DNA of 25,269 nt from a virus. The stretch is from positions 1-25,269 of the IMG/VR virus record IMGVR_UViG_3300032241_002667; one strand, 5' to 3'. A model generated the notes under the pieces. It saw nothing but the letters and a program-made list of their open reading frames with translations, searched no databases and was not told the DNA's origin. Positions 3,642 to 20,584 of the stretch are shown here, piece by piece. A program made the translations under genes and the position numbers. Position 1 is the stretch's first letter, and each line of letters starts with the position of its first letter.

Positions 3642-3671
3642 ATTATATAGTATCCATGAAAGCCTTGACAG
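3642..3671 (-). promoter_or_regulatory. Possible sigma70-type promoter before nrdJ
   Basis: A perfect minus-strand TATAAT lies at 3642-3647. An 18-base spacer separates it from CTGTCA (3666-3671), which matches four of six bases of TTGACA. It overlaps the end of thyX and would give a leader of roughly 25 bases containing the AAGGA ribosome-binding site of nrdJ. AT-rich DNA produces such matches by chance, so this is tentative. Confidence 0.3.
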
Positions 3672-4314
3672 CCACAGGAACAATGGGGTTAATTGAAGTT
3701 AATATAGCTTCAGCATACACGCGAATCTCATACTGAGAATGCTCATGTAAACGAAGTTTTAGAAAATGAAGTAGATTGTGCAAATCAACTGTCGCGAACA
3801 TACGCGAATAAGCGCCAACTGGTAGAACTGAGCGAGCAAGTTCTCTCGGGCAACCATCAATTAATAACTGTCTATACATCTCAAAAGCGAGCATATTCGA
3901 CTGATCAATTGCTCTGGCAATATCTTCAGCAAATGGATGTTGTTCATCTGTGCGCATTTGCTTATTTGATTTTGATTGTGTTGTTATTTTTTCTATCGCA
4001 GGAACATAGTATCCCTCATCCAACTCAGTATATCGTGCACTAATTTCGTTGAATGACCAAGTGCGATGTCGGTGCCACTGACGAAAAACGAAAATAGGTG
4101 CCTTCACCTCAAAGGTGAAAACAACAGATTCAAAAGGAGAGGTGTGCTTATTCTTCCAAAGATATTTGATGAGCTTTTCGTCTTTACCTTCTTCATCTCC
4201 AGAACGCCAATCAGCATTATATGAAACTCTGGCTGATCTAACAATAGAAAGATCATCACCCATATGATCAACTAGTCTAACAAAACCATGATCGAGCACA
4301 TCAACTTTATCCAT
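3643..4314 (-). CDS. thyX: Flavin-dependent thymidylate synthase ThyX
   Basis: A 223-residue ThyX that methylates dUMP to dTMP using FAD, NADPH and methylene-tetrahydrofolate. The diagnostic RHR-x7-S signature is intact: R82-H-R84 and S92 within 'RHRTWSFNEISARY'. The C-terminal part carries 'GCPRELARSVLP', the conserved substrate-binding region, and length is normal for the family. The ATG at 4314 has a strong AAGGAG ribosome-binding site. The gene lies directly upstream of the class II ribonucleotide reductase, so the two form a DNA-precursor module. ThyX/NrdJ pairs are common in marine T4-like phages, whereas T4 itself uses ThyA (td). Confidence 0.97.
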   Translation of the reverse strand: MDKVDVLDHGFVRLVDHMGDDLSIVRSARVSYNADWRSGDEEGKDEKLIKYLWKNKHTSPFESVVFTFEVKAPIFVFRQWHRHRTWSFNEISARYTELDEGYYVPAIEKITTQSKSNKQMRTDEQHPFAEDIARAIDQSNMLAFEMYRQLLIDGCPRELARSVLPVGAYSRMFATVDLHNLLHFLKLRLHEHSQYEIRVYAEAILTSINPIVPVAVKAFMDTI

Positions 4315-4323
4315 AATAACTCC

Positions 4324-4623
4324 TTAATGTATATTTTCGTCAGCGTCATCATCCTGTTCAATGGGATCTGTGCTATCTCCAGTCTTTAATTCATTACCTT
4401 CACACATAATAGAATTGGGACCAGTATATGTCCACCAAACGTTATGGGTGTGTGTTGAAGCTTCTTCTGTGTGATACTCTGCCCAACCCAAATCTCTAAG
4501 ATCCCCAAAATTATATCCAGTGTGCGATAATGCAACGGGTAAAATTTCTGGCTTATTGTTAGCCATTATGTCATTAGATAATTCAGTCAAATATTGCGCT
4601 CTTCCGATATTTGGATGTGGCAT
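4324..4623 (-). CDS. Unknown small acidic protein
   Basis: A 99-residue protein that I do not recognise. It contains a histidine- and tryptophan-bearing middle (roughly 'YHTEEASTHTHNVWWTYTG') and an acidic tail rich in Asp and Glu. There is no membrane segment or known motif. I choose the ATG at 4623, one base after the stop of the glycosyltransferase gene, because GGAG in the end of that gene sits six bases upstream; the longer in-frame TTG at 4635 would place the ribosome-binding site inside the protein. Tight coupling suggests co-translation with the upstream gene. Confidence 0.75.
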   Translation of the reverse strand: MPHPNIGRAQYLTELSNDIMANNKPEILPVALSHTGYNFGDLRDLGWAEYHTEEASTHTHNVWWTYTGPNSIMCEGNELKTGDSTDPIEQDDDADENIH

Positions 4624-4624
4624 A

Positions 4625-5629
4625 TTATTCTCCAATATATTTTATAAATTGTTTTGCTGATCTTTGCCAAGTTTTGCCAATAACACTATTATATACTGTT
4701 TTTCTTTCAATACCTAAACATTTATTGACTGCAACTGTCAAATTATCATCTACATAACCATTATCATTATTAGTTATTAAATCTATTGGTCCAGTCACAG
4801 GATAAGCTGCAACTGGTGTTCCGCAAGCCATGGCTTCCAACATCACTATTCCAAATGTGTCGGTTTTACTTGGGAAAACGAAAACATCAGCATTTTGATA
4901 ATATGAGACGAGCTCTTCACCAAATTTATAACCAACAAAATGCACATCGTCATATTGATTCTGTAATCGTTTTCTATCTGGACCATCGCCGACTACAATT
5001 TTTGTATATTTCCAAGAATCAACACCAATCTCGCAAAAGTCTTCTATGTTCTTTTCTTTACTGACTCTCCCAACATATAATAAAATTGGACGTCTTGATA
5101 CTTGTTTTTCTTTAAATTCAAAGAAGTTTGAGTGCCCACTATCCCAAACTCTAGTGTTCCACTTTGGATTCTCTTTAGCAACAGATTTAGAAGGAACCAA
5201 TACTAGCTTGGATTTTTTATGGAACCAATTAAAATACCATCTAGTGAGTATAGCTGGAATTTTATAAATTGATTGTATGTATTCTGGAAACTTCGTATGA
5301 TACGCAGTTGTATATCTCATACCATATTGATCCAATAATCTTTTCATTTGCAACCCCAATGGTCCTTCGGTTGCAATATGAATTTTAAATATGTAATAAT
5401 TTCCCACAGAATCCCAAAAAACATCTAGAAGTTTTTCTTTAGGAACCAACGCCATTTCTATATTTTTATACAATCCAAATTTGAACGTTTTGAACATGCT
5501 GGGCTCAATGATAGTGACTTCCCAATCTTCTGGGAGATTATCTATCAAATTGCTGTACATAGTGACCACACCATTGACTTGTGGATACCATGCATCAGTT
5601 ACGATTACTAATTTTTTCTTCAAAAACAT
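4625..5629 (-). CDS. GT4-type glycosyltransferase, Agt-like
   Basis: A 334-residue GT-B fold glycosyltransferase of the GT4 family. The N-terminal half has 'DAWYPQVNGVV' (12-22), the acceptor-side glycine-rich loop of this family. The C-terminal half has 'YVGRVSKEKN' (185-194), 'VVGDGPDRKRL' and the donor-site D/E-x7-E region 'TDTFGIVMLEAMACGTP' (D257, E265). The protein resembles bacterial lipid glycosyltransferases of the SqdX/Agt/MgtA type more than capsule enzymes. It overlaps the PlcP-like phosphoesterase gene by 10 bases, and a GGGAG site precedes its ATG. In marine and rhizobial Alphaproteobacteria the plcP-agt pair replaces phospholipids with glycolipids during phosphate starvation, which is the basis for my proposal. 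Alternatives are glycosylation of a host surface polymer or of virion proteins. Confidence 0.9.
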   Translation of the reverse strand: MFLKKKLVIVTDAWYPQVNGVVTMYSNLIDNLPEDWEVTIIEPSMFKTFKFGLYKNIEMALVPKEKLLDVFWDSVGNYYIFKIHIATEGPLGLQMKRLLDQYGMRYTTAYHTKFPEYIQSIYKIPAILTRWYFNWFHKKSKLVLVPSKSVAKENPKWNTRVWDSGHSNFFEFKEKQVSRRPILLYVGRVSKEKNIEDFCEIGVDSWKYTKIVVGDGPDRKRLQNQYDDVHFVGYKFGEELVSYYQNADVFVFPSKTDTFGIVMLEAMACGTPVAAYPVTGPIDLITNNDNGYVDDNLTVAVNKCLGIERKTVYNSVIGKTWQRSAKQFIKYIGE

Positions 5630-6375
5630 TCAATAATCTCCCATCTTCCGTCATGGTGTTCAACTAATGCTGTGCAGCTTTCTACCCAATCTCCATCGTT
5701 CATATAGATAATTCCGTTGAAATCAGTTATTTCTGCCTTATGTATATGTCCGCATATAATTCCATCTGCGCCTTTCTTTTTGCAGTAATCGACAATCAGT
5801 TCTTGGAAATCTGACATAAAAGCAACAGCTTCTTTAGTTTTGCTTTTTAAATATGCACTTAAACTCCAATATGATAGTCCAAACTTAGATCTAAACCAAG
5901 CAACCAAACGATTGATTTCTAGCAGAATATCATAAATTGCATCACCAAGATGATATAAAAACTTCAACTTATTGCGGATTGCAGTATCAAACATATCGCC
6001 ATGGACAACTAAGTACGTTTTACCATCTACTGCTTGATACTTATAAAAATTTTCAAGTTTAATTTGTCCAACTGTTATATTATAACGCAATAATTTTCTC
6101 AATTCTTCATCATGATTACCTGGGATATAAATGACATTAGTTCCAGAATTTGAAATTGATAAAATCTCACATATAACTTCCATGTGAGATTTTGGCCAAT
6201 ATATTTTTCTCTCCAGTCTCCAGAAATCAATAATATCACCAACGAGAAATAAATTCTCTGATGAATTTTTCTTTAGGAATTTGCAAAGTAATTCTGCTTT
6301 GCTTCCTTTTGTGCCCAAATGTATATCTGAAATGAATATTGATTTATACTTCTTTTTCTTTAGCATTTTTTCCAT
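5620..6375 (-). CDS. PlcP/LpxH-like metallophosphoesterase
   Basis: A 251-residue calcineurin-like phosphoesterase. All dinuclear-metal motifs are present in order: D17-x-H19 in 'SDIHLG', 'GDIIDFW' (D47), 'GNHDE' (86-90), 'VHGD' (H125) and 'CGHIHKA' (H210, H212). The general type is usually annotated UDP-2,3-diacylglucosamine diphosphatase. However, the ending 'NDGDWVESCTALVEH' recalls the alphaproteobacterial PlcP group, a phospholipase C that releases the headgroup of phosphatidylethanolamine/phosphatidylglycerol under phosphate limitation. The directly coupled GT4 gene downstream strengthens PlcP over LpxH, and lipid A work would make little sense for a phage. The ATG at 6375 overlaps the primase stop; ATG 6366 is an alternative start. 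The enzyme class is sure, the substrate is inferred. Confidence 0.9.
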   Translation of the reverse strand: MEKMLKKKKYKSIFISDIHLGTKGSKAELLCKFLKKNSSENLFLVGDIIDFWRLERKIYWPKSHMEVICEILSISNSGTNVIYIPGNHDEELRKLLRYNITVGQIKLENFYKYQAVDGKTYLVVHGDMFDTAIRNKLKFLYHLGDAIYDILLEINRLVAWFRSKFGLSYWSLSAYLKSKTKEAVAFMSDFQELIVDYCKKKGADGIICGHIHKAEITDFNGIIYMNDGDWVESCTALVEHHDGRWEIIECF

Positions 6376-7394
6376 TGGATGAACCTTAATTTTGCCTCTA
6401 AACCTTGGAACGTATTATCATCTATAACATTCTTAAGCTCATCAGCAGTCATTCCACCCAAAATCATTTCATTAATATCTTTATAAGGAATATTATCAGG
6501 AAATAAACAAATAGTATATCCTTTTTCTATTGATCTACTAATCTGTTTAACAATCTCTTTATTTCTTGGCTCATTATCATAAACGAGCACAGTATCACTT
6601 AAAAGCTCTGCCACGCTGCCCAAATTACTATCGCCACTGGCAACGCTATTAGGAATAAAGAACGAATCAAATTGACCTTCGAAGATGTATACCCGATCAT
6701 TGGTCCACACTCGATGCAATCCGAACAACTTTTTTTCTTCTGAGATTTTGACTGTGCAATAACGTATCGGATCATTGCCAAGTGCTCTACCTGAAACATT
6801 CGTTATTTCTCCTTGCTCATTTGTATAGAACAAAACGATTCTTGCATCATTTGGAACTCTTTCGTTTCCATGATTTGGGAATGTTTCGTCTAAAAAGTCT
6901 TTATAATTTTCAGTGAAAAAGATTTCACTCCAGAATTCATCTGGGATACTTCTCTTTCTTATGTATTTTTTTGCTGCGTGATCATCACTCAGAGTATTTA
7001 TGTTAGATATCTTCTCTCCGATATTTTTAATCGTTAATCTTTTATTACTAAAAATGTCGGAAGGTTTTGGTCCTTCCAATTCAAACTTTGGTTTTTCAAA
7101 ATTTGAATTTTTAGAGTCACCATTAGTATATCGATCTAATGAATATTGACGATGCGATTCGGGATCAGTATGCTTTAGAAATTTAGAAAATGTCGTGCTG
7201 ATGCTGCAGTTATGACAGGTATAATAATAATCATTATTCTTTCTATAAATGTATCCTCTCGCCTTCAGCTTGTTTCTCTGTGAATCTCCACAGAAAGGGC
7301 AAGAAAAGTTAAAAAGGTCTTCTTTCTTTTGTTTAAAATTTCTTAGTCCAGATGAGACTAATAAGAGATACTTTCTATCAAGAAAAACTGCCAT
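6360..7394 (-). CDS. 61: T4 gp61-like DNA primase
   Basis: A 344-residue primase, close to the 342 residues of T4 gp61, which makes RNA primers for lagging-strand synthesis together with the gp41 helicase. The N-terminal zinc ribbon has C32-PF-C35 and C60-HN-C63. The Toprim core has 'RVYIFEGQFDSFF' with catalytic E239, followed by 'VYDNEPRN' (271-278), the typical acidic strand in this group. I place the start at the ATG at 7394; an in-frame TTG four codons earlier has no better ribosome-binding site. The 65-base gap upstream is one of the few here and contains TATACT at 7430-7435 with TTGTTT 15 bases further upstream, a weak promoter candidate. The gene is separated from gp41 by about 14 kb of virion and lysis genes. 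Confidence 0.95.
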   Translation of the reverse strand: MAVFLDRKYLLLVSSGLRNFKQKKEDLFNFSCPFCGDSQRNKLKARGYIYRKNNDYYYTCHNCSISTTFSKFLKHTDPESHRQYSLDRYTNGDSKNSNFEKPKFELEGPKPSDIFSNKRLTIKNIGEKISNINTLSDDHAAKKYIRKRSIPDEFWSEIFFTENYKDFLDETFPNHGNERVPNDARIVLFYTNEQGEITNVSGRALGNDPIRYCTVKISEEKKLFGLHRVWTNDRVYIFEGQFDSFFIPNSVASGDSNLGSVAELLSDTVLVYDNEPRNKEIVKQISRSIEKGYTICLFPDNIPYKDINEMILGGMTADELKNVIDDNTFQGLEAKLRFIQWKKC

Positions 7395-7459
7395 AATAAA
7401 GCTCAAACCGTGAGTGACTATTACTCCATAGTATACATGATTAATTCATAAAACAAAAA

Positions 7460-8631: not shown

Positions 8632-9276
8632 TTATCCTCTTGGAGGTCTGGCTGTTAGATAATTTTTCAAAGTTCCAGAACCAGTTGCAGTCTTCTTAAT
8701 GCTTTTTGGAGTTTCTGGTTTCTTCTCTGCACCAACTCCTAATCTTTTGTTGCGTTGATCGATTGTTTGTTGTACTGCCCAAGTTTCTCTGCCACTTTTG
8801 CCTTCTCTTCCTCCTGTTGGTGGAACCCATGCTCTATATTTGTCAGGAACCATCTGTCCAGTTTCTGGATCTTTTTTATGAGTGATATTAGCAGCAAATC
8901 TTCCCTTTGGGCGAGTTAAACCTATTAATTCTTCGCGAAATTGTTTAAATGGATTTCTATTATATGGATCCTGCCCCCTTGATTCTGGTTCATCTGGGAC
9001 TAACTCTAATCCTTTGTGGTGAAGTTTGTTAGAAGCTTTCTCTTTGTCTGGGTTATGTTTTTTTGGAACTTGACGTTGCAATTCCCAATCGCCACGATCA
9101 ATTTCGTTAATCTGTTCTTCGCCCATATGTTTAAAATATTGAACTTGGCGCTCGCGTTTTTCAGCACCAGCCTTAGATGGGTAAGTTCCAAGATTTTTTC
9201 CAGTTTTTCTGGAAACTAGACGATACTTACTGTCGACTTTTACGATGTGTTCTTTTAGTTCTTTTATTGTTTTCAT
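8632..9276 (-). CDS. Basic virion-interior candidate protein
   Basis: A 214-residue, strongly basic protein rich in Lys, Arg, Gly and Pro. The N-terminus MKTIKELKEHIVK is followed by a compact segment 'SRKTGKNLGTYPSKAGAEKR' (22-41) and then RERQVQYFK. I recall this small module from other marine phage proteins, where it occurs at the ends of unrelated ORFs. An 'EEQINEI' motif (53-59) resembles the EE-x-E-x-[LVI]-D-E motif of neighbouring proteins and may be a prohead-protease linker. The C-terminal half has no recognised fold and looks partly disordered. No enzyme motif is visible. The gene begins four bases after the preceding stop. A DNA-binding or internal capsid role is inferred from composition and neighbours. 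Confidence 0.8.
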   Translation of the reverse strand: MKTIKELKEHIVKVDSKYRLVSRKTGKNLGTYPSKAGAEKRERQVQYFKHMGEEQINEIDRGDWELQRQVPKKHNPDKEKASNKLHHKGLELVPDEPESRGQDPYNRNPFKQFREELIGLTRPKGRFAANITHKKDPETGQMVPDKYRAWVPPTGGREGKSGRETWAVQQTIDQRNKRLGVGAEKKPETPKSIKKTATGSGTLKNYLTARPPRG

Positions 9277-9280
9277 TTTT

Positions 9281-9784
9281 TTACTCTTCGCAGTGCCATC
9301 TTCTCAATGACATTGCCTTTCTTGTTGGACGACCTTTCTCATCTTTCATTGGACCTTTCATTCCGCTCATGCGAGCACAGAATGACTTACGACGATTCCA
9401 TGCTTTTGAACCGTGTTTTAATTTTGAAGGTTCTGTAGTGACAGCTGTTGACAATTTTGATCCTGGATGTTCGCGACGATGTTTCATAACACCAGCACGA
9501 GTTAACCCAGCACCTGATTCTGTTGAACGCTTGTACTTGTTTGCGCCACGTTCATCTAGCTGCTCGACTTCTTCATTTTTTGGTTTCTTTCCAGCTTTTT
9601 TCATAGCAATAGCAATGGCTGCTTGTTGTGCAGCGTTGGCAGCTTCTTTAACAGGAACGCAGTTAGGAACCTTTCTGCCGTTCTTCATTTTCATGCCAAC
9701 AGCAGTATAACCTTTCCAACATGCTTTTTTTAGATCGCCTGTTGGTTCTACAACTTCTGAGATAAAACCTTTAAAACTTTTCAT
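9281..9784 (-). CDS. Basic protein with capsid-targeting-like N-terminus and cysteine modules
   Basis: A 167-residue basic protein starting MKSFKGFISE, a near match to the capsid-targeting peptide of T4 internal protein III; cleavage would follow E10. Residues 17-45 ('ACWKGYTAVGMKMKNGRK' and NCVP) and the C-terminus 'RRKSFCARMSGMKGPMKDEK' to RRWHC are two conserved modules that I recall as small DUFs in marine phages (DUF5872-like and DUF6321-like, from memory). The four cysteines (22, 42, 136, 165) could bind metal. 'EEVEQLDE' (71-78) is the motif shared with neighbouring proteins. I choose ATG 9784 because it overlaps the upstream stop in an ATGA junction and yields the shared N-terminus; the frame runs further upstream to 9811 without support. 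Confidence 0.85.
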   Translation of the reverse strand: MKSFKGFISEVVEPTGDLKKACWKGYTAVGMKMKNGRKVPNCVPVKEAANAAQQAAIAIAMKKAGKKPKNEEVEQLDERGANKYKRSTESGAGLTRAGVMKHRREHPGSKLSTAVTTEPSKLKHGSKAWNRRKSFCARMSGMKGPMKDEKGRPTRKAMSLRRWHCEE

Positions 9785-10044
9785 TTGTTTTCCTTCTGAT
9801 GCATTATCCATGTATCTGGAATCTCTTTATATTTATTTACCCACATATCGTGTAATTTTTGTCCACTCAGTCCATGGGAATTAGCAATACGAGTCATAAT
9901 CTTATCAATAATCCCATAAACTGCATTTTCGTCGGCATTTTTAATTTTATCAGCTTGAGCTAATAAAGCTGCCTTAAGTTCAGGAACAGCCTGTGAATCT
10001 TTATCATGATCCATGTTTTCTAAAAATAGCTTAAAAGTTTTCAT
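9781..10044 (-). CDS. Small protein with capsid-targeting-like N-terminus
   Basis: An 87-residue protein beginning MKTFKLFLEN, again the common N-terminal pattern of this cluster, followed by an acidic linker and a helical domain containing 'GLSGQKLHDMWVNKYKEIPD'. The last part resembles a short conserved module I have seen in T4-like marine phages, but I cannot name it. It overlaps the endolysin gene upstream by four bases and the basic protein gene downstream by four bases (ATGA). A packaged internal protein is the simplest inference; there is no catalytic motif. Confidence 0.8.
   Translation of the reverse strand: MKTFKLFLENMDHDKDSQAVPELKAALLAQADKIKNADENAVYGIIDKIMTRIANSHGLSGQKLHDMWVNKYKEIPDTWIMHQKENK
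9830..9837 (-). promoter_or_regulatory. Possible T4-type late promoter box
   Basis: The minus strand reads AATAAATA here, seven of eight bases of the T4 late promoter consensus TATAAATA, 46 bases before the ATG of the basic protein at 9784. It is inside the coding region of the preceding small gene. In such AT-rich DNA the match can be chance, and no late sigma factor gene is in the window to support it. Confidence 0.2.
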
Positions 10045-10682
10045 TGTACGTGTGTTAAAACCTCTAATGCTGTTTTGTAGTATTGTTCACGAGCATCTAG
10101 TGCCATTAATCCTGGATTAATTTGTTTCGTTAATCCTACAAAATTGTCTTTATCAATATAAGCATTTAATCCTTTAAAGTTCCAGAACCAGATCGCGCTC
10201 ACTACTGCACCTTCAATGCTTTCTAGATATTCTGGATGAGCTGATAAATTAAATCCTATTGCTGTTCCGCAATGATCATATGACCATTTTCCAGTAAGCT
10301 GAATCAATCCACGACCTTTATATTTCCATCCATCTCCAGAAGATTCTGGACCATTGCCCAGTTTGCTACTATAAACGAAATTAGCAATTTTTTCTGGTTG
10401 GTTTGCATATAGGTTAGCTAAAGTTTCATCAGGGAAATATTCTGGAAATACGGATCTCAGACCTGCTGCGCTATAATTTAAATTTTCCACTAGTCTTTGA
10501 AAATGTTGAGACTCCACTGCACATTGGGCAAGAAATGCTGCTTGACGTTTTGGTGTAGAAAATCCGCTCTCATCTGTCAATTTACCAAAGTGATCGTTTA
10601 AAGATGCAACAAGATCATCCAAATCTAATTGACTTTTTGATGCTGCTGGGTCAATTGAAAGTAGAGTCTGTTTGGTTATCAT
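10041..10682 (-). CDS. GH19 chitinase-like endolysin
   Basis: A 213-residue glycoside hydrolase family 19 protein, expected to cleave the peptidoglycan glycan strand during lysis. The signature 'FLAQCAVESQHFQRL' (50-64) carries the proposed catalytic E57 in the family's 'A-x-E-S' position. 'YKGRGLIQLTGKWSY' (121-135) is the second hallmark, and the rest follows the family (Trp-rich 'AIWFWNFKGLNAYID'). There is no signal peptide or cell-wall-binding domain, so it should need the holin-like protein to reach the wall. It sits among virion-interior genes, so a virion-associated lysin is possible, but it lacks the shared capsid-targeting N-terminus. It overlaps both neighbours by 1-4 bases. Confidence 0.93.
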   Translation of the reverse strand: MITKQTLLSIDPAASKSQLDLDDLVASLNDHFGKLTDESGFSTPKRQAAFLAQCAVESQHFQRLVENLNYSAAGLRSVFPEYFPDETLANLYANQPEKIANFVYSSKLGNGPESSGDGWKYKGRGLIQLTGKWSYDHCGTAIGFNLSAHPEYLESIEGAVVSAIWFWNFKGLNAYIDKDNFVGLTKQINPGLMALDAREQYYKTALEVLTHVQ

Positions 10683-11086
10683 TAAACTGGTTTCTTTCTT
10701 CTAAACAAATTTTTGAAAAGATTCTTTCTATAATTTTGAGAACTCATGACAGCAGAAGCAGTGGGATCAGCTTGAGCTCCAGATATTGGAGAAACTGATC
10801 CACCACCAACACTCATTCCTGAAGCGACAGCACCACCATCTTCATGGATTGTTTCTTCATCCCAACGACCTGATGGTCCAGTTGTATGTGATGGTGGAAC
10901 TCGATTCATTCTGTATTTTCCCTGCTCGCGGGTCACGCCTGGATTCTTCATGAATTTCTGAGGATCAGGTTTTGGTCTTACGATATTTGTTGGTGGTTTT
11001 GTTGGAGTGCTTTTCTGTGGAGCAGATCCAGTAACTGGATTCATTCTAGAAGTTGCTTTATCTCTGATCTGTCCTAATGTCTTCAT
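10682..11086 (-). CDS. Low-complexity Pro/Gly/Ser protein
   Basis: A 134-residue, mostly disordered protein: an N-terminus MKTLGQIRDKATSR, a proline- and lysine-rich middle (about 25-65), a short acidic segment 'RWDEETIHEDGG', a Gly/Ser stretch and a strongly basic tail ending in RRKKPV. No fold or catalytic motif is recognisable. The basic tail could bind DNA. It overlaps the upstream gene by four bases (ATGA) and shares its stop/start base with the endolysin gene, so it is part of the same translationally coupled run. Probably a minor virion or scaffold component, by context only. Confidence 0.75.
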   Translation of the reverse strand: MKTLGQIRDKATSRMNPVTGSAPQKSTPTKPPTNIVRPKPDPQKFMKNPGVTREQGKYRMNRVPPSHTTGPSGRWDEETIHEDGGAVASGMSVGGGSVSPISGAQADPTASAVMSSQNYRKNLFKNLFRRKKPV

Positions 11087-15713: not shown

Positions 15714-17120
15714 TTATCCTTCCAATTCTTTATCAACGTTATTTGTAGTAGAGGAAATTCTTTCTCTTACCTGATTGAATGATTTCTTTTCAGTTACAAC
15801 ATTCGTTAAGCATGAGCCAGAATCACCAGTTCCAAAATTTTGAGCACTTCCAATATTTGGTGGTTGGACTGCTTCAGGTTTTTTGAATTTCTTTTTCTTA
15901 GCTTCATTGAATGTGCTATATGTACCATTGGAATATGATGGAGCAGATCCTGGGGATCCACCACAAGCATCAGGATTTCCTAGATCTTTGATTTTGCCGA
16001 ATGCTGAAGATAATCTTCCTGGTTTATATTTCTTTTCGGATTTCTTGGCTTCAGCAACTCCACAGACTCCAGTGGATGATGCATCAAAAGAACCACTACC
16101 ACCATAACCATTAGTGCGAGCTGCACTTTCTGGTGGAATTCTAGGAAGAACTTTAGGCATTTTCTTCTTTTCTTCATTCTGTCCAGAATATCCAGTTCCA
16201 CCAGCAGGTCCAGAAACAGCTGGACCAATTGAACCATAAGCTGTATTAGTTATACTAGGGTAATTCAAGCTTTTGGTTTGTTTTTTGACTTTGCTGATTT
16301 CTTTTTTGCTGTTTTTTTCTTCGTAGACGCCTTTTGCTGCGTAGTCTTCAGTGCCTTCGCCACTTCTGTCTGTTCTTTTGGCATCAGCGGAAGCGACTCC
16401 ACCTTTGTTTGTGTCTCCGCACTCGCATTTATCTTTGCATCTACAAATGCTTTTAGTTTTTGAGTCAGCTTCTTTATATGTGTTAACATGGTTGGATCCT
16501 TGTCCTGGGGTTAGTGCTTTAATAAAATCTGCGGTTGACTTTGTACCAATTTCCATAACTCTTTCTTTAATCCAATCAACAGCAGAATCATTAGTTGGTT
16601 CTTTTATCAAAAATCCAGAAACGATTTGAGATAATTCTAATAACCAATTTGTTATTTCTTGTTTTGTGCTTTCATTGACATTAGAAAAACTATTTGAATT
16701 GTCAAATAATAAGAAAGAATCAAACATGTTTGAATATTCACTTAGGTTTGATACTGATTTTTCATATTTAATCTTTCTTAAACTTTCATTAAAAGTTTTT
16801 GCGCCACGGGCAATTCTAGAATCATTTCTTGACTTTGATGATTCATCAGAAGTGTAAACATAAATCATTGCAGTATCATAACCCATTTCTTCTAAAATAG
16901 CTTTAGTGACAACAATCTTATCTTTATTGTCTGCGTTACCATTCACGATAATTGATGGGAAATTTTCCAATTCTTCAATATTTGTTTCTTTCACTATCGC
17001 ATTAAACATACGTTCCATTGAAACTTCTTTGAGTGTAAATTCATTTAATGTTGAATGAATTAGAAAGTCTTTTCCACTTCCAGGACCGCCAACTAAAAAT
17101 ATTGCTTTAAAGTGATTCAT
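15714..17120 (-). CDS. P-loop kinase-like protein with repetitive Lys/Gly/Ser tail
   Basis: A 468-residue two-part protein. Residues 1-170 are a P-loop NTPase with Walker A 'GGPGSGKD' (11-18) and the layout of small nucleotide or zeta-toxin-like kinases ('IVVTKAILEEMGYDTAMIYV', then a lid-like basic 'SRIARGAKTFNES'). Residues 205-468 are low-complexity: a cysteine knuckle 'CRCKDKCEC' (226-234), then Gly/Ser/Pro spacers punctuated by five charged 'E-[AK]-K-K'-type blocks near 267, 316, 357, 406 and 444. The blocks resemble the EAKK that follows processed capsid-targeting peptides. The kinase substrate is unknown. It overlaps its upstream neighbour by four bases (ATGA). The unusual tail suggests a packaged or scaffold-associated enzyme. 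Confidence 0.85.
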   Translation of the reverse strand: MNHFKAIFLVGGPGSGKDFLIHSTLNEFTLKEVSMERMFNAIVKETNIEELENFPSIIVNGNADNKDKIVVTKAILEEMGYDTAMIYVYTSDESSKSRNDSRIARGAKTFNESLRKIKYEKSVSNLSEYSNMFDSFLLFDNSNSFSNVNESTKQEITNWLLELSQIVSGFLIKEPTNDSAVDWIKERVMEIGTKSTADFIKALTPGQGSNHVNTYKEADSKTKSICRCKDKCECGDTNKGGVASADAKRTDRSGEGTEDYAAKGVYEEKNSKKEISKVKKQTKSLNYPSITNTAYGSIGPAVSGPAGGTGYSGQNEEKKKMPKVLPRIPPESAARTNGYGGSGSFDASSTGVCGVAEAKKSEKKYKPGRLSSAFGKIKDLGNPDACGGSPGSAPSYSNGTYSTFNEAKKKKFKKPEAVQPPNIGSAQNFGTGDSGSCLTNVVTEKKSFNQVRERISSTTNNVDKELEG

Positions 17121-18595
17121 TTTCTCTTAACCGATAGTTTGCCAGCTTCTATTGCTTTTTTAATTTTTGTCATATGTTCTTGTGCTTCTTTTCTGGAAAA
17201 AGCTGATCCTAAATGCTTATGAAAAGTATTTAGATCACCTGCTGCTGCCGCTGCTCGCATTTTAGTTCCTGACAATCCATGACTTCTTTCCGAGTCTTCA
17301 GGAGTATGGATGTGGATCTCGTCAAAATGTTTGCCTTCCATCTCTTTGATCTTTCCAGCTTCAAGAGATTTCTTTAATCCATGAGCAAAATCTTTTCTGT
17401 CTGCTCCAACTAATAGATGCAGGACTTTCTTTCCTTTATTTGGGAGAGAAGCGTGGGCTCTTGCAATTGTTTCACCTGCTGATTTAACAACATGAGTATT
17501 TAAATCTTTGTGACCCCATTGTTTATGAAGAACGCTTGCTCTTTCTTCTGGTGAATATATGTCAGACTTAGATGAAATTCCAATATGTTTCGTTCCTGGG
17601 AGTTTCTTCATTGCGCCACCAAGATCATGAGCGTGTCCCATGTGCGAAATAGGTGAAAATCCAGTTAATGGTACTACTGTTGTGTGGTGTACTTCTTCAG
17701 ATTCTCTGATCAAATCTTTGGTGCCCAATGTTTTCTTTAAATGCTCAAGAGCAGCAGTATGGTTGCCCTTCTTAGTAGCAAGATCATCTCTAAATTTATC
17801 ATAAATTTCTTGATGGCGTCTAGGGTCTATATGTTTCTTGATTAATTCTGCGACACCACGAAAAGAATGTATTTTCTTATGATTTGCATCTTTGCCAAAT
17901 AGGGTATGAGAAATCTCTTCAGGATCTTTAGTTCCTGGTTTTGATTCATCAGTTTTTGATTCAAGAACAGTTCTTGATCGTAATCCATGAGTAATTGAAA
18001 ACTTATGAACATTTCCACCTACCGCATTTAAAAGAATCTTATGGTGCATTCCTTTAATGCCATGTATTGTATCTTCCCAACTTGAACTGTGTGCGAACTG
18101 CTCACCTTTAGTTGGCTCGTCTTTATGGTAATCAGCAGCTTCAAAATCAAACTGGTGGTGTGTGCCATTTTTATGGCGCATCACTGCTGATACTTCATTA
18201 CCGTGTTTCTTTGTACCAACTACAGTATAATTACCAAACTTTCTGCCAGGTGATAGGTGTTTTGACAATTTATCTTTATGTTCTTTTGGAATTTGAACAT
18301 CAATGTCACCAGTATTTGGTTTATGGTGCGCATATTCTGCATCAGATATATTATGATTCATTAAATGCTTAGTTGAACCAGCATAAGCCGATCCTGTGAT
18401 TAATGCTTTTTTACCTTTACCAAAAAGGTGCCCACCATGTTCTTTATGGAAAGAATCATGTATTGCGCTTAGTGTGTTGTGTATTTCTGCGGAGGTGCTA
18501 TTTCTATTCTTTTCAGTGACGTGCACTGGTTGTGCTCCAACTTCACCAATCTTTATGTTGCCACCTTCTCTTAAAAATTGTTTAAATGTTTGCAT
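17117..18595 (-). CDS. Double nucleotidyltransferase: pol-beta-like plus HxGH adenylyl/cytidylyltransferase-like
   Basis: A 492-residue fusion. It begins MQTFKQFLRE|GG, the cluster's capsid-targeting-like start. The first domain (about 60-200) has 'ALITGSAYAGSTKH' and 'GDIDVQIP' (D97-x-D99), the GS and DxD pattern of pol-beta-type nucleotidyltransferases. The last domain (305-492) has 'TGFSPISHMGH' (H318-x-G-H321) and 'SGTKMR' (442-447), the HxGH and ISTxxR-like motifs of NMN adenylyltransferase/cytidylyltransferase enzymes. About 49 histidines (10%) is extraordinary. Substrates are unknown; NMN or a nucleotide-end modification are possibilities. The ATG overlaps the previous stop by one base (TAATG). 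Motif assignments are by eye; the second domain is surer than the first. Confidence 0.85.
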   Translation of the reverse strand: MQTFKQFLREGGNIKIGEVGAQPVHVTEKNRNSTSAEIHNTLSAIHDSFHKEHGGHLFGKGKKALITGSAYAGSTKHLMNHNISDAEYAHHKPNTGDIDVQIPKEHKDKLSKHLSPGRKFGNYTVVGTKKHGNEVSAVMRHKNGTHHQFDFEAADYHKDEPTKGEQFAHSSSWEDTIHGIKGMHHKILLNAVGGNVHKFSITHGLRSRTVLESKTDESKPGTKDPEEISHTLFGKDANHKKIHSFRGVAELIKKHIDPRRHQEIYDKFRDDLATKKGNHTAALEHLKKTLGTKDLIRESEEVHHTTVVPLTGFSPISHMGHAHDLGGAMKKLPGTKHIGISSKSDIYSPEERASVLHKQWGHKDLNTHVVKSAGETIARAHASLPNKGKKVLHLLVGADRKDFAHGLKKSLEAGKIKEMEGKHFDEIHIHTPEDSERSHGLSGTKMRAAAAAGDLNTFHKHLGSAFSRKEAQEHMTKIKKAIEAGKLSVKRK

Positions 18596-19560
18596 TATTT
18601 ATTTCTCGACTTGAACTTTTCTTTATTTGTTGGATCAGCTTTATATTCTCTGAAAGATTGAGAGGTGACTTTAAATCTTGGAGCATTTGGATTCTTTTCA
18701 GAAGGATGAACTACGAGTCCTTCTGTTCCTGATCCCCATTTTGGTTTAATATTTTTAGATGAAATATGTTCATCAACTTTCTTAGAAACGACATGTTTGA
18801 TTTTGTCAAACTTTTCCATTTCTTTCATTTTGGCTTCTTTATTGGACTTAGTTGTTCTTGATTTTAATAAATCATGATTTAATTTTTTAAACTTTTCATG
18901 TTCATCTCTAACGTCAACATGAGATGGTTTATGATCAATTCTATCATCGTCGAAATTCATTTCACTATTTGATAAATGTTTCTTAAAATGTTCGATATCA
19001 TGACCGTGATTTTCAGGTAACTTTGAATGAATTACATATTTGCCCACTGAGCCCATATGTCCTGGGTGATAGGAAGTACCAACAAATTTAATTTCACCCT
19101 CATGCTCTTCAGATGGGCGACCAAATGGTTTGTAAAATGCTTCACCCTTAACCTTAACTTCTTTGCCAGTTCTGTGGTATTCAGCTTTTAAGTGGTGTTG
19201 TAGTGCTGCATTTTTGGCTAAAGTTTTATGAATATGCGCAAAAGCATTAGCGGCAGTTGGATCGTATGGCTTGCCTGTTTCTTTAGCTCTTTTTTTTGCT
19301 CTCTTAATAAAATCTTCTGGATTTCTCATTTTCTCTGAACCAGAGCCTGAGCTTTGAGTATAAAATCCATGTTCATCATGACCGAACTGATGAGTCATTC
19401 CATCAGTCTTTTCGGTGACATCATGAATGTGAACCTTTCCACCTTTAATAAGGTTTCCAAATTGCTCATGAGTCATTGAGTGGATGTGAGGTAAACCTTG
19501 TCTGATCGACTCAGTAATTAAATTAAAACTTTCGTTTATAAACGTTTTAAATCTTAACAT
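18595..19560 (-). CDS. DNA/RNA ligase-fold nucleotidyltransferase
   Basis: A 321-residue protein with the ordered motifs of the covalent nucleotidyltransferase (DNA/RNA ligase, capping enzyme) superfamily: motif I 'EKTDGM' with K51 as the adenylation lysine, a central 'VKGEAFYKP' (E140), motif IV 'GTEGLVVHP' (E280) and motif V 'RFKVTS' (K297). No OB-fold or other accessory domain is obvious, so polynucleotide joining is plausible but not proven. It starts MLRFKTFINE|S, the shared capsid-targeting-like N-terminus, and is His-rich (about 28 of 321 residues). A possible CTAAATA promoter box lies in the 46-base gap upstream. It could seal nicks in the injected genome or act on host nucleic acid. 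Confidence 0.85.
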   Translation of the reverse strand: MLRFKTFINESFNLITESIRQGLPHIHSMTHEQFGNLIKGGKVHIHDVTEKTDGMTHQFGHDEHGFYTQSSGSGSEKMRNPEDFIKRAKKRAKETGKPYDPTAANAFAHIHKTLAKNAALQHHLKAEYHRTGKEVKVKGEAFYKPFGRPSEEHEGEIKFVGTSYHPGHMGSVGKYVIHSKLPENHGHDIEHFKKHLSNSEMNFDDDRIDHKPSHVDVRDEHEKFKKLNHDLLKSRTTKSNKEAKMKEMEKFDKIKHVVSKKVDEHISSKNIKPKWGSGTEGLVVHPSEKNPNAPRFKVTSQSFREYKADPTNKEKFKSRNK

Positions 19561-19593
19561 TTAAACATCCACACTTTGGGATAATAGTTAATA

Positions 19594-19600
19594 TATTTAG
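19594..19600 (-). promoter_or_regulatory. Possible late-type promoter box CTAAATA
   Basis: CTAAATA on the minus strand, seven bases beyond the stop of the metalloprotease-HAD gene and 34 bases before the ATG of the ligase-fold gene. It resembles the T4 late promoter box (TATAAATA). It occupies one of only three intergenic gaps above 40 bases. A second copy occurs at 20781-20787, but that one lies only about 6 bases before a start codon. No expression evidence. Confidence 0.3.
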
Positions 19601-19606
19601 TAATTA

Positions 19607-20584
19607 TTAATCGTCATGATTCTCATATTTCTTACTGGTACCATCAGGTTGCACATGATGCGCATGGAATGTCGTGTGGGGAAATTCCTTTCTCAACTTA
19701 AGAAAATGGTCGAGATTTTTGCTATCATCATCGTATAAATGAGCTTCTCTGTAATTTCCGCTCTTGAGATGATGTCTGATTACTTCCGCTTTCTTTTCAG
19801 CGACTGGCTGGTGAGTTTCTATATTCCCAGCTCTTTCTACGCGGATATTGTCAATATCCACTCCATGTTTGCGCCAATGATGCAAGAACTTCTTTTTGTC
19901 GTCAAAGTTTGATCGCGCAGTTGCCATTATCACTTTACTTTTTGGGTGCGACTTTACATTCTTATGGATCGCTTTCAGTTTAGCCAACATGGGTTTAATT
20001 GGCTTTTCTTTATTGAATTGGTCAGATGATCTGAACTCACTAAAATCGTAGTGGTGTCCGTGTTGAAGTTTATGTTTGTTGTATTCATCATGGGAAAGTG
20101 ACTGAATAATCTTCCCATGGTGGTCTTTTACATGAACCTTAGCGGTTGTATGCATAAGAGTACCATCTATGTCAAATGCATGTAATGTGCCACGATGATC
20201 TGTGTTTTCAAATATTGCAGGATTAATCTTACCATAATTGCGCATAATAATGCCAGCTTTAGCATTGGCTTCATTTTCAATATCGCTTCCAGTTTCACCA
20301 GAATTATGTGTAATTCTGTTTTCTAGATCTTGTTTGTGATGAGCCAATTCATGCGCAAGTGTGCGCATAACATCAACAGGATGACGTCCTGCTGTATTCA
20401 CTTTAATTGATTTATCGTTTGGACTATATCCACCAAAGCTTTTGTGTTCTGAAGCTTCTTTTTTATTATCTATTAGGTGAATTTTAGGTGGTTGTTCTAT
20501 GCCAAGATGATCGCAGGCATAATTAATGAAATGGCTAATATGATCGTGGTTCGATTCTTTGATGTATTGTTTGAAGCTCTTCAT
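19607..20584 (-). CDS. Fusion of HExxH metalloprotease and HAD phosphatase domains
   Basis: A 325-residue, two-domain protein. It starts MKSFKQYIKE|S, the best match in the window to the T4 capsid-targeting peptide. Residues 15-120 form a small zinc metalloprotease: 'LAHELAHHKQD' holds H78-E79-x-x-H82, and E103 or E105 in 'DIENEANAKAG' is a likely third ligand. Residues 133-310 are a HAD hydrolase: 'AFDIDGTL' (D138, D140), 'IMATARS' (motif II) and 'HLYDDDSKN' (motif IV). About 37 histidines (11%), far above average. Both active sites look complete. The ATG overlaps the upstream stop (ATGA). Joining a peptidase and a phosphatase behind one targeting peptide suggests a delivered effector, which is inference. 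Confidence 0.88.
   Translation of the reverse strand: MKSFKQYIKESNHDHISHFINYACDHLGIEQPPKIHLIDNKKEASEHKSFGGYSPNDKSIKVNTAGRHPVDVMRTLAHELAHHKQDLENRITHNSGETGSDIENEANAKAGIIMRNYGKINPAIFENTDHRGTLHAFDIDGTLMHTTAKVHVKDHHGKIIQSLSHDEYNKHKLQHGHHYDFSEFRSSDQFNKEKPIKPMLAKLKAIHKNVKSHPKSKVIMATARSNFDDKKKFLHHWRKHGVDIDNIRVERAGNIETHQPVAEKKAEVIRHHLKSGNYREAHLYDDDSKNLDHFLKLRKEFPHTTFHAHHVQPDGTSKKYENHDD

Follow-up and report, generated by a model that had tools for sequence, protein, structure and literature searches.

A phage-borne plcP-agt gene pair with a probable role in lipid remodelling and phosphate supply

The window, i.e. the whole stretch of DNA analysed here, is a 25,269-base IMG/VR viral record. Its minus strand bears T4-like genes for replication, namely those for DNA polymerase, UvsX, a DnaB-like helicase and primase as well as thyX. 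Judged by their sequences, two genes in the window almost certainly encode a PlcP-type metallophosphoesterase and a glycosyltransferase of the Agt/GTcp clade. This pair is probably a phage-borne plcP-agt lipid-remodelling module whose freed phosphate may feed DNA synthesis. Phosphate salvage would be the benefit for which plcP-agt was selected, a view to which we lean with some reserve. Bacterial gene order, trees, conserved GTcp positions, viral linkage and gene company together make it very probable that plcP-agt phages remodel lipids in connection with phosphate supply. Family identity, coupling, catalytic residues, purifying selection and gene linkage were obtained in the analysis; from there, we infer which substrates are used, at what time, and what becomes of the phosphate.

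Both genes are located on the minus strand. The plcP-like gene (5620..6375, 251 aa) encodes a binuclear metallophosphoesterase predicted to act as phospholipase C on PG and PE, and the agt-like gene (4625..5629, 334 aa) a predicted GT4 (GT-B) diacylglycerol glycosyltransferase. The first-pass annotation had described two ORFs overlapping by 10 bases. This is exact: the 3' end of plcP and the 5' end of agt share 5620..5629 on the minus strand. The agt ATG lies slightly upstream of the plcP stop codon and is preceded by a GGGAG-like ribosome binding site. The overlap suggests that translation of the two genes may be coupled. Directly upstream, the DNA primase gene (6360..7406, minus strand) overlaps plcP by 16 bp, which places plcP-agt within the replication gene run. 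Downstream of the pair follows thyX (3643..4314, minus strand), encoding a flavin-dependent thymidylate synthase. It is also found after plcP-agt in L004-L007 and directly after plcP in L003. Between agt and thyX, a 103-aa ORF (4324-4635, minus strand) is present that shows 78% identity in L006 and L007 and has no PHROG match.

The window UvsX is nearest to UvsX of Stenotrophomonas/Xanthomonas T4-like phages rather than to that of pelagiphages, so that Pelagibacter is unsupported as host of this contig. A promoter/terminator scan yielded promoter-like sites no more numerous than in shuffled sequences. In two other regions of the window, 8632-11086 and 17117-20584, several minus-strand ORFs resemble one another at their start, where they follow the pattern M-x-x-F-K-x-[FY]-[IL]-x-E, with MKTFKLFLEN, MKSFKQYIKES, MLRFKTFINES and MQTFKQFLREGG as N-terminal examples. 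This pattern resembles the N-terminal capsid-targeting sequence found on internal head proteins of T4. The ORFs with an M-x-x-F-K start may represent a set of packaged internal proteins.

The phosphoesterase contains a Metallophos domain (59 bits, cut-off 21.5). Its metal ligands D17, H19, D47, N87, H125, H210 and H212 are invariant across 65 relatives. The C-terminal block GDWVESCTALVE (residues 228-239; codons at 5659..5694, minus strand, coordinates reckoned from the ORF) is typical of PlcP and invariant or nearly so in the alignment of 65 phage and bacterial sequences. The resemblance to PlcP previously noticed in the GDWVESCTAL block is, therefore, genuine. In the window's phage clade, plcP is under purifying selection (median dN/dS about 0.03). 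Against two NCBIfam LpxH models, the window protein obtained 54 bits (cut-off 134) and 46 bits (cut-off 190). The plcP-type genes of 15 out of 16 bacterial genomes holding close relatives reached 37-56 bits on the LpxH model, and the true LpxH genes found in four of the same genomes ~280 bits (cut-off 134). Furthermore, the window PlcP has GNHDE where LpxH has GNRDF. In a quick PlcP tree comprising two LpxH rows only and leaving out experimentally characterised PlcP sequences, LpxH is found on a long separate branch (split SH-aLRT 100). The window PlcP is part of a viral clade with L003, L004, L084 and L085 (SH-aLRT 99), which is located beside or outside the 40-row bacterial PlcP clade. Sub-cut-off scores, motif and branching led us to reject LpxH, and the proposed PlcP identity stands.

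An AlphaFold2 model of the window PlcP (pLDDT 88.5) displays a calcineurin-like fold, and the nearest solved structures in the PDB are those of LpxH. No structure of a PlcP turned up in the PDB searches, so that LpxH offers the closest fold for comparison. The plcP homologs of phages Mosig and S-SRM01 are annotated as UDP-2,3-diacylglucosamine hydrolase/diphosphatase. In the isolated phage Mosig (EXVC030M; L001 4888-6723), plcP adjoins a divergent pstS, and its lipid A-type annotation is probably a misannotation. The present analysis revises the lipid A-type annotation given to phage PlcP. Two plcP genes on MAG contigs, L093 228-1049 (Hyphomonas) and L094 3986-4843 (Hellea), are placed among the viral clades. 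No agt was found on either contig, and both genes may be phage sequences binned with the host.

The glycosyltransferase has a Glycos_transf_1 domain (98 bits, cut-off 26.4). In ten bacterial genomes, Agt orthologs scored 202-252 bits over their full length, and the highest value among the remaining GT4 paralogs was 48. In the Agt tree, which took in bacterial GT4 paralogs and left out experimentally known capsule or DNA-glucosylating enzymes, viral Agt proteins are nested among their bacterial counterparts, close to those of Pelagibacteraceae and OCS116 and at a long distance from the remaining GT4s. This agrees with the initial proposal of a lipid-type GT4, as the window enzyme is found inside the bacterial Agt clade and apart from the paralogous GT4 enzymes that these bacteria encode. 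A capsule/LPS-type GT4 was rejected on the basis of score gap and tree position, and a DNA-glucosylating enzyme because no such family was among the domain or profile matches.

GTcp of Pelagibacter HTCC7211 is a characterised diacylglycerol glycosyltransferase of 334 aa with a His104-Asp256 dyad (PMC8231724). Twelve of the 14 functional GTcp positions defined in that study, including the dyad, are identical in the window Agt (H111, D257, R188, K193, T258, F259, G260, E265, G20, G89, G92 and Trp321). The GTcp donor-site motif FPSXTDTFG is present as FPSKTDTFG (residues 252-260; codons at 4850..4876, minus strand, reckoned from the ORF) and comprises the catalytic Asp257, which corresponds to GTcp Asp256 (PMC8231724). 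In the window's phage clade, agt is under purifying selection (median dN/dS about 0.09). Within the viral Agt set (L003-L091, L218-L291), 34 of 134 proteins carry Glu at the position of the catalytic Asp256. In GTcp, this replacement cost >90% of the activity (PMC8231724), and the chemistry of the 34 Glu-bearing viral enzymes may differ. In a Pelagibacteraceae agt (L150 4784-5791), the catalytic His is replaced by Cys; the adjoining plcP is apparently intact.

Bacterial plcP commonly adjoins a gene for the synthesis of a non-phosphorus lipid (PMC4796936), and plcP-agt has been linked to the replacement of phospholipid by glycolipid under phosphate starvation (PMC4796936, PMC8231724, PMC9239053). 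Adjacency of plcP to a lipid glycosyltransferase gene was found in both bacterial and viral relatives of the window. When the 80 bacterial sequences closest to phage plcP, mostly from Alphaproteobacteria, were examined, agt followed plcP immediately in 62. Among 80 viral loci found by agt alone, 77 contain plcP directly upstream on the same strand. These are 77 of 77 evaluable cases: the contigs of the remaining three begin at or near agt, and the plcP side is cut. The pairing, earlier rated as the strongest argument, is far above chance, and the idea of chance neighbours was rejected. IMG/VR contains 369 plcP-bearing stretches. When viral loci were found with plcP, 51 of 80 had agt within about 1 kb. 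L003, Mosig and S-SRM01 have plcP without an adjoining agt. A GT2-type glycosyltransferase gene adjoins plcP in 22 of the 29 agt-less viral plcP loci; a GT2 of ~237 aa follows plcP in L027-L033, L040, L045-L047, L055, L058, L062, L064, L067, L071-L073, L075, L077 and L082. Such a GT2 might provide a second route to glycolipid. T4 gp23 is encoded on 15 of 42 plcP/agt-bearing contigs, which identifies these as phage. For them, cellular contamination of IMG/VR was rejected, a verdict that does not cover all of the short contigs.

The link to phosphate is independently backed by pstS, which adjoins the pair in several phages. Nine of 25 long plcP-bearing phage contigs, not all of them independent, contain pstS, and in eight of the nine, pstS and plcP share a strand and are no more than ~3 kb apart. 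Of five pstS copies tested, three exceeded the curated PstS cut-offs, and two matched a PstS subfamily model with sub-cut-off scores. The order pstS-plcP-agt-ugd is found in L013 (5036-8504) and L038 (5036-8504), located on T4 gp23-encoding phage contigs that are 45 and 218 kb long. The UDP-glucose dehydrogenase-like protein encoded by ugd is a source of UDP-glucuronic acid, a usable donor for Agt; UDP-glucose dehydrogenase occurs in seven plcP loci. In L085, a member of the window's PlcP clade, pstS is found 1.4 kb upstream, and the contig, 188 kb in length, also encodes gp23. In the window itself, no pstS was found within the 25-kb fragment. No Pho box with up to three mismatches was detected in the window or beside Mosig plcP, and the phage may use its own promoters. 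Genes for DesA-type desaturases are located near plcP in nine loci, e.g. beside plcP and GT2 or beside plcP-agt in L058 (5995-8163), L027 (5472-7790) and L261 (3278-6969). This suggests that phages may edit membrane lipids more broadly. In one locus (L084), a PAP2 phosphatase gene is inserted between plcP and agt.

Based on these data, the following mechanism can be proposed. PlcP would cut the phosphate-bearing head group from host PG and PE to yield diacylglycerol, to which Agt would transfer glucose, galactose or glucuronic acid, with a UDP-sugar as donor. By this sugar capping, the bulk of the membrane would be kept as glycolipid. During infection, the freed phosphate would be available for making dNTPs and DNA. 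This fits the location of plcP-agt, flanked by the genes for primase and thymidylate synthase, as well as the presence of pstS beside related pairs. The occurrence of the pair in many uncultured phages, often beside a phosphate-uptake gene, suggests that the host membrane is used as a phosphate store. On balance, we favour, albeit cautiously, a generalization to T4-like phages of multiple lineages: They would share a modular lipid-exchange island composed of plcP and a gene for Agt or a GT2 enzyme with optional pstS, UDP-glucose dehydrogenase, DesA and PAP2 genes, and host phospholipid would be the phosphate store for viral DNA.

One part of the window Agt deviates from GTcp. The two non-matching positions are adjacent in the predicted diacylglycerol site, where Thr162 is replaced by Asp and Arg163 by Ser. 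GTcp Arg163 is essential: the mutant is inactive, and a contact to diacylglycerol is predicted (PMC8231724). At its position, the window has Ser164 (codon at 5138..5140, minus strand, reckoned from the ORF), and Lys is found in 31 of 31 closest phage relatives, Arg in 62 of 62 bacterial and 103 other viral Agts, with some viral loci sharing one contig. In addition, the loop at this position is shortened in the window's Agt clade. Another residue of the predicted diacylglycerol site, Trp321 (GTcp Trp320), is kept. Since Arg163 is replaced and the GTcp Arg163 mutant is inactive, acceptor or activity of the window-clade Agt may have changed. The earlier claim of full catalytic motifs in both genes holds for the metal ligands, the His-Asp dyad and the donor site but not for the Arg163 equivalent, which is absent.

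Hence, it is conceivable, though unlikely, that PlcP works and frees phosphate, and that the window-clade Agt has shifted its acceptor or, in this copy, is weakened. Apart from Ser in the window, Lys in the 31 relatives and the shortened loop, this explanation could draw on L003, the closest plcP relative, which lacks agt, and on L008, where a window-like plcP (69%) is combined with an agt from another clade. It is countered by the purifying selection on agt in the clade and by the intact dyad, donor site and Trp321. Alternatively, the same chemistry might serve to alter host surface or membrane charge, be it to exclude superinfection, to resist envelope stress or to time lysis, with phosphate as a by-product. 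Pelagimyophage glycosyltransferases and UDP-glucose dehydrogenase have been read as LPS/surface modifiers (PMC7029224), the desaturase genes adjoining the pair point to membrane properties, and membrane lipids reportedly affect phage attachment in a roseobacter (PMC9938194). However, pstS next to the pair and the setting among replication and nucleotide-synthesis genes indicate phosphate, and the pair resembles the bacterial phosphate-starvation operon and not an O-antigen locus. We consider such a primary envelope function quite improbable.

Least credible, with a negligible chance of being correct, is an LpxH-type lipid A enzyme accompanied by an unrelated LPS glycosyltransferase. The annotations in Mosig and S-SRM01 and the best PDB folds would be in its favour, but scores, motif and tree position of the phosphoesterase contradict it, the fold is the nearest one available, and the linkage to Agt is nearly absolute. 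The lipid-remodelling module that supplies phosphate is the explanation we prefer. Points that weigh against it are the altered Arg163 position, the Glu-bearing viral Agt proteins, the missing Pho box, the phages with plcP but no adjoining agt, and the absence of pstS from the 25-kb window.

Enzymes and operon are already known in bacteria. For viral plcP or plcP-agt, the literature searches, which did not extend to preprints and most subscription papers, brought no report to light, and the announcement of the Mosig genome is silent on genes for lipid or phosphate functions. In a pelagimyophage survey, glycosyltransferases and UDP-glucose dehydrogenase are interpreted as LPS-related, and a desaturase is also mentioned (PMC7029224). 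Phage DNA synthesis demands much phosphate, a need that also arises in phosphate-poor cells. If our proposal is correct, phages mine the host membrane for phosphate and keep this membrane intact by a glycolipid swap. This would link infection to membrane chemistry and phosphorus cycling.

The closest known system is the plcP-agt operon of Alphaproteobacteria such as Candidatus Pelagibacter HTCC7211, Erythrobacter NAP1 and Methylosinus OB3b, which matches the phage pair in families, order, near-overlap and catalytic residues. By contrast, the phage pair is carried by T4-like phages, viral PlcP proteins form their own clades, Arg163 is altered in the window clade, and no Pho box was found in the window. 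With GTcp (PMC8231724), the window Agt has the length of 334 aa, the His-Asp dyad, the FPSXTDTFG motif and the Trp320 equivalent in common; it differs by Asp-Ser instead of Thr162-Arg163 and, as in the rest of its clade, by the shortened loop. LpxH, the UDP-2,3-diacylglucosamine diphosphatase, shares the calcineurin-like fold and overall architecture with the window PlcP, which, however, stays at 54 bits vs. the 134-bit cut-off, is devoid of the GNRD motif and belongs to a different branch. Cyanophages carry pstS/phoA-type genes for phosphate supply during infection that act on external phosphate. The module proposed here would share this role in phage phosphate supply but, in contrast to the cyanophage genes, would tap the host's own membrane.
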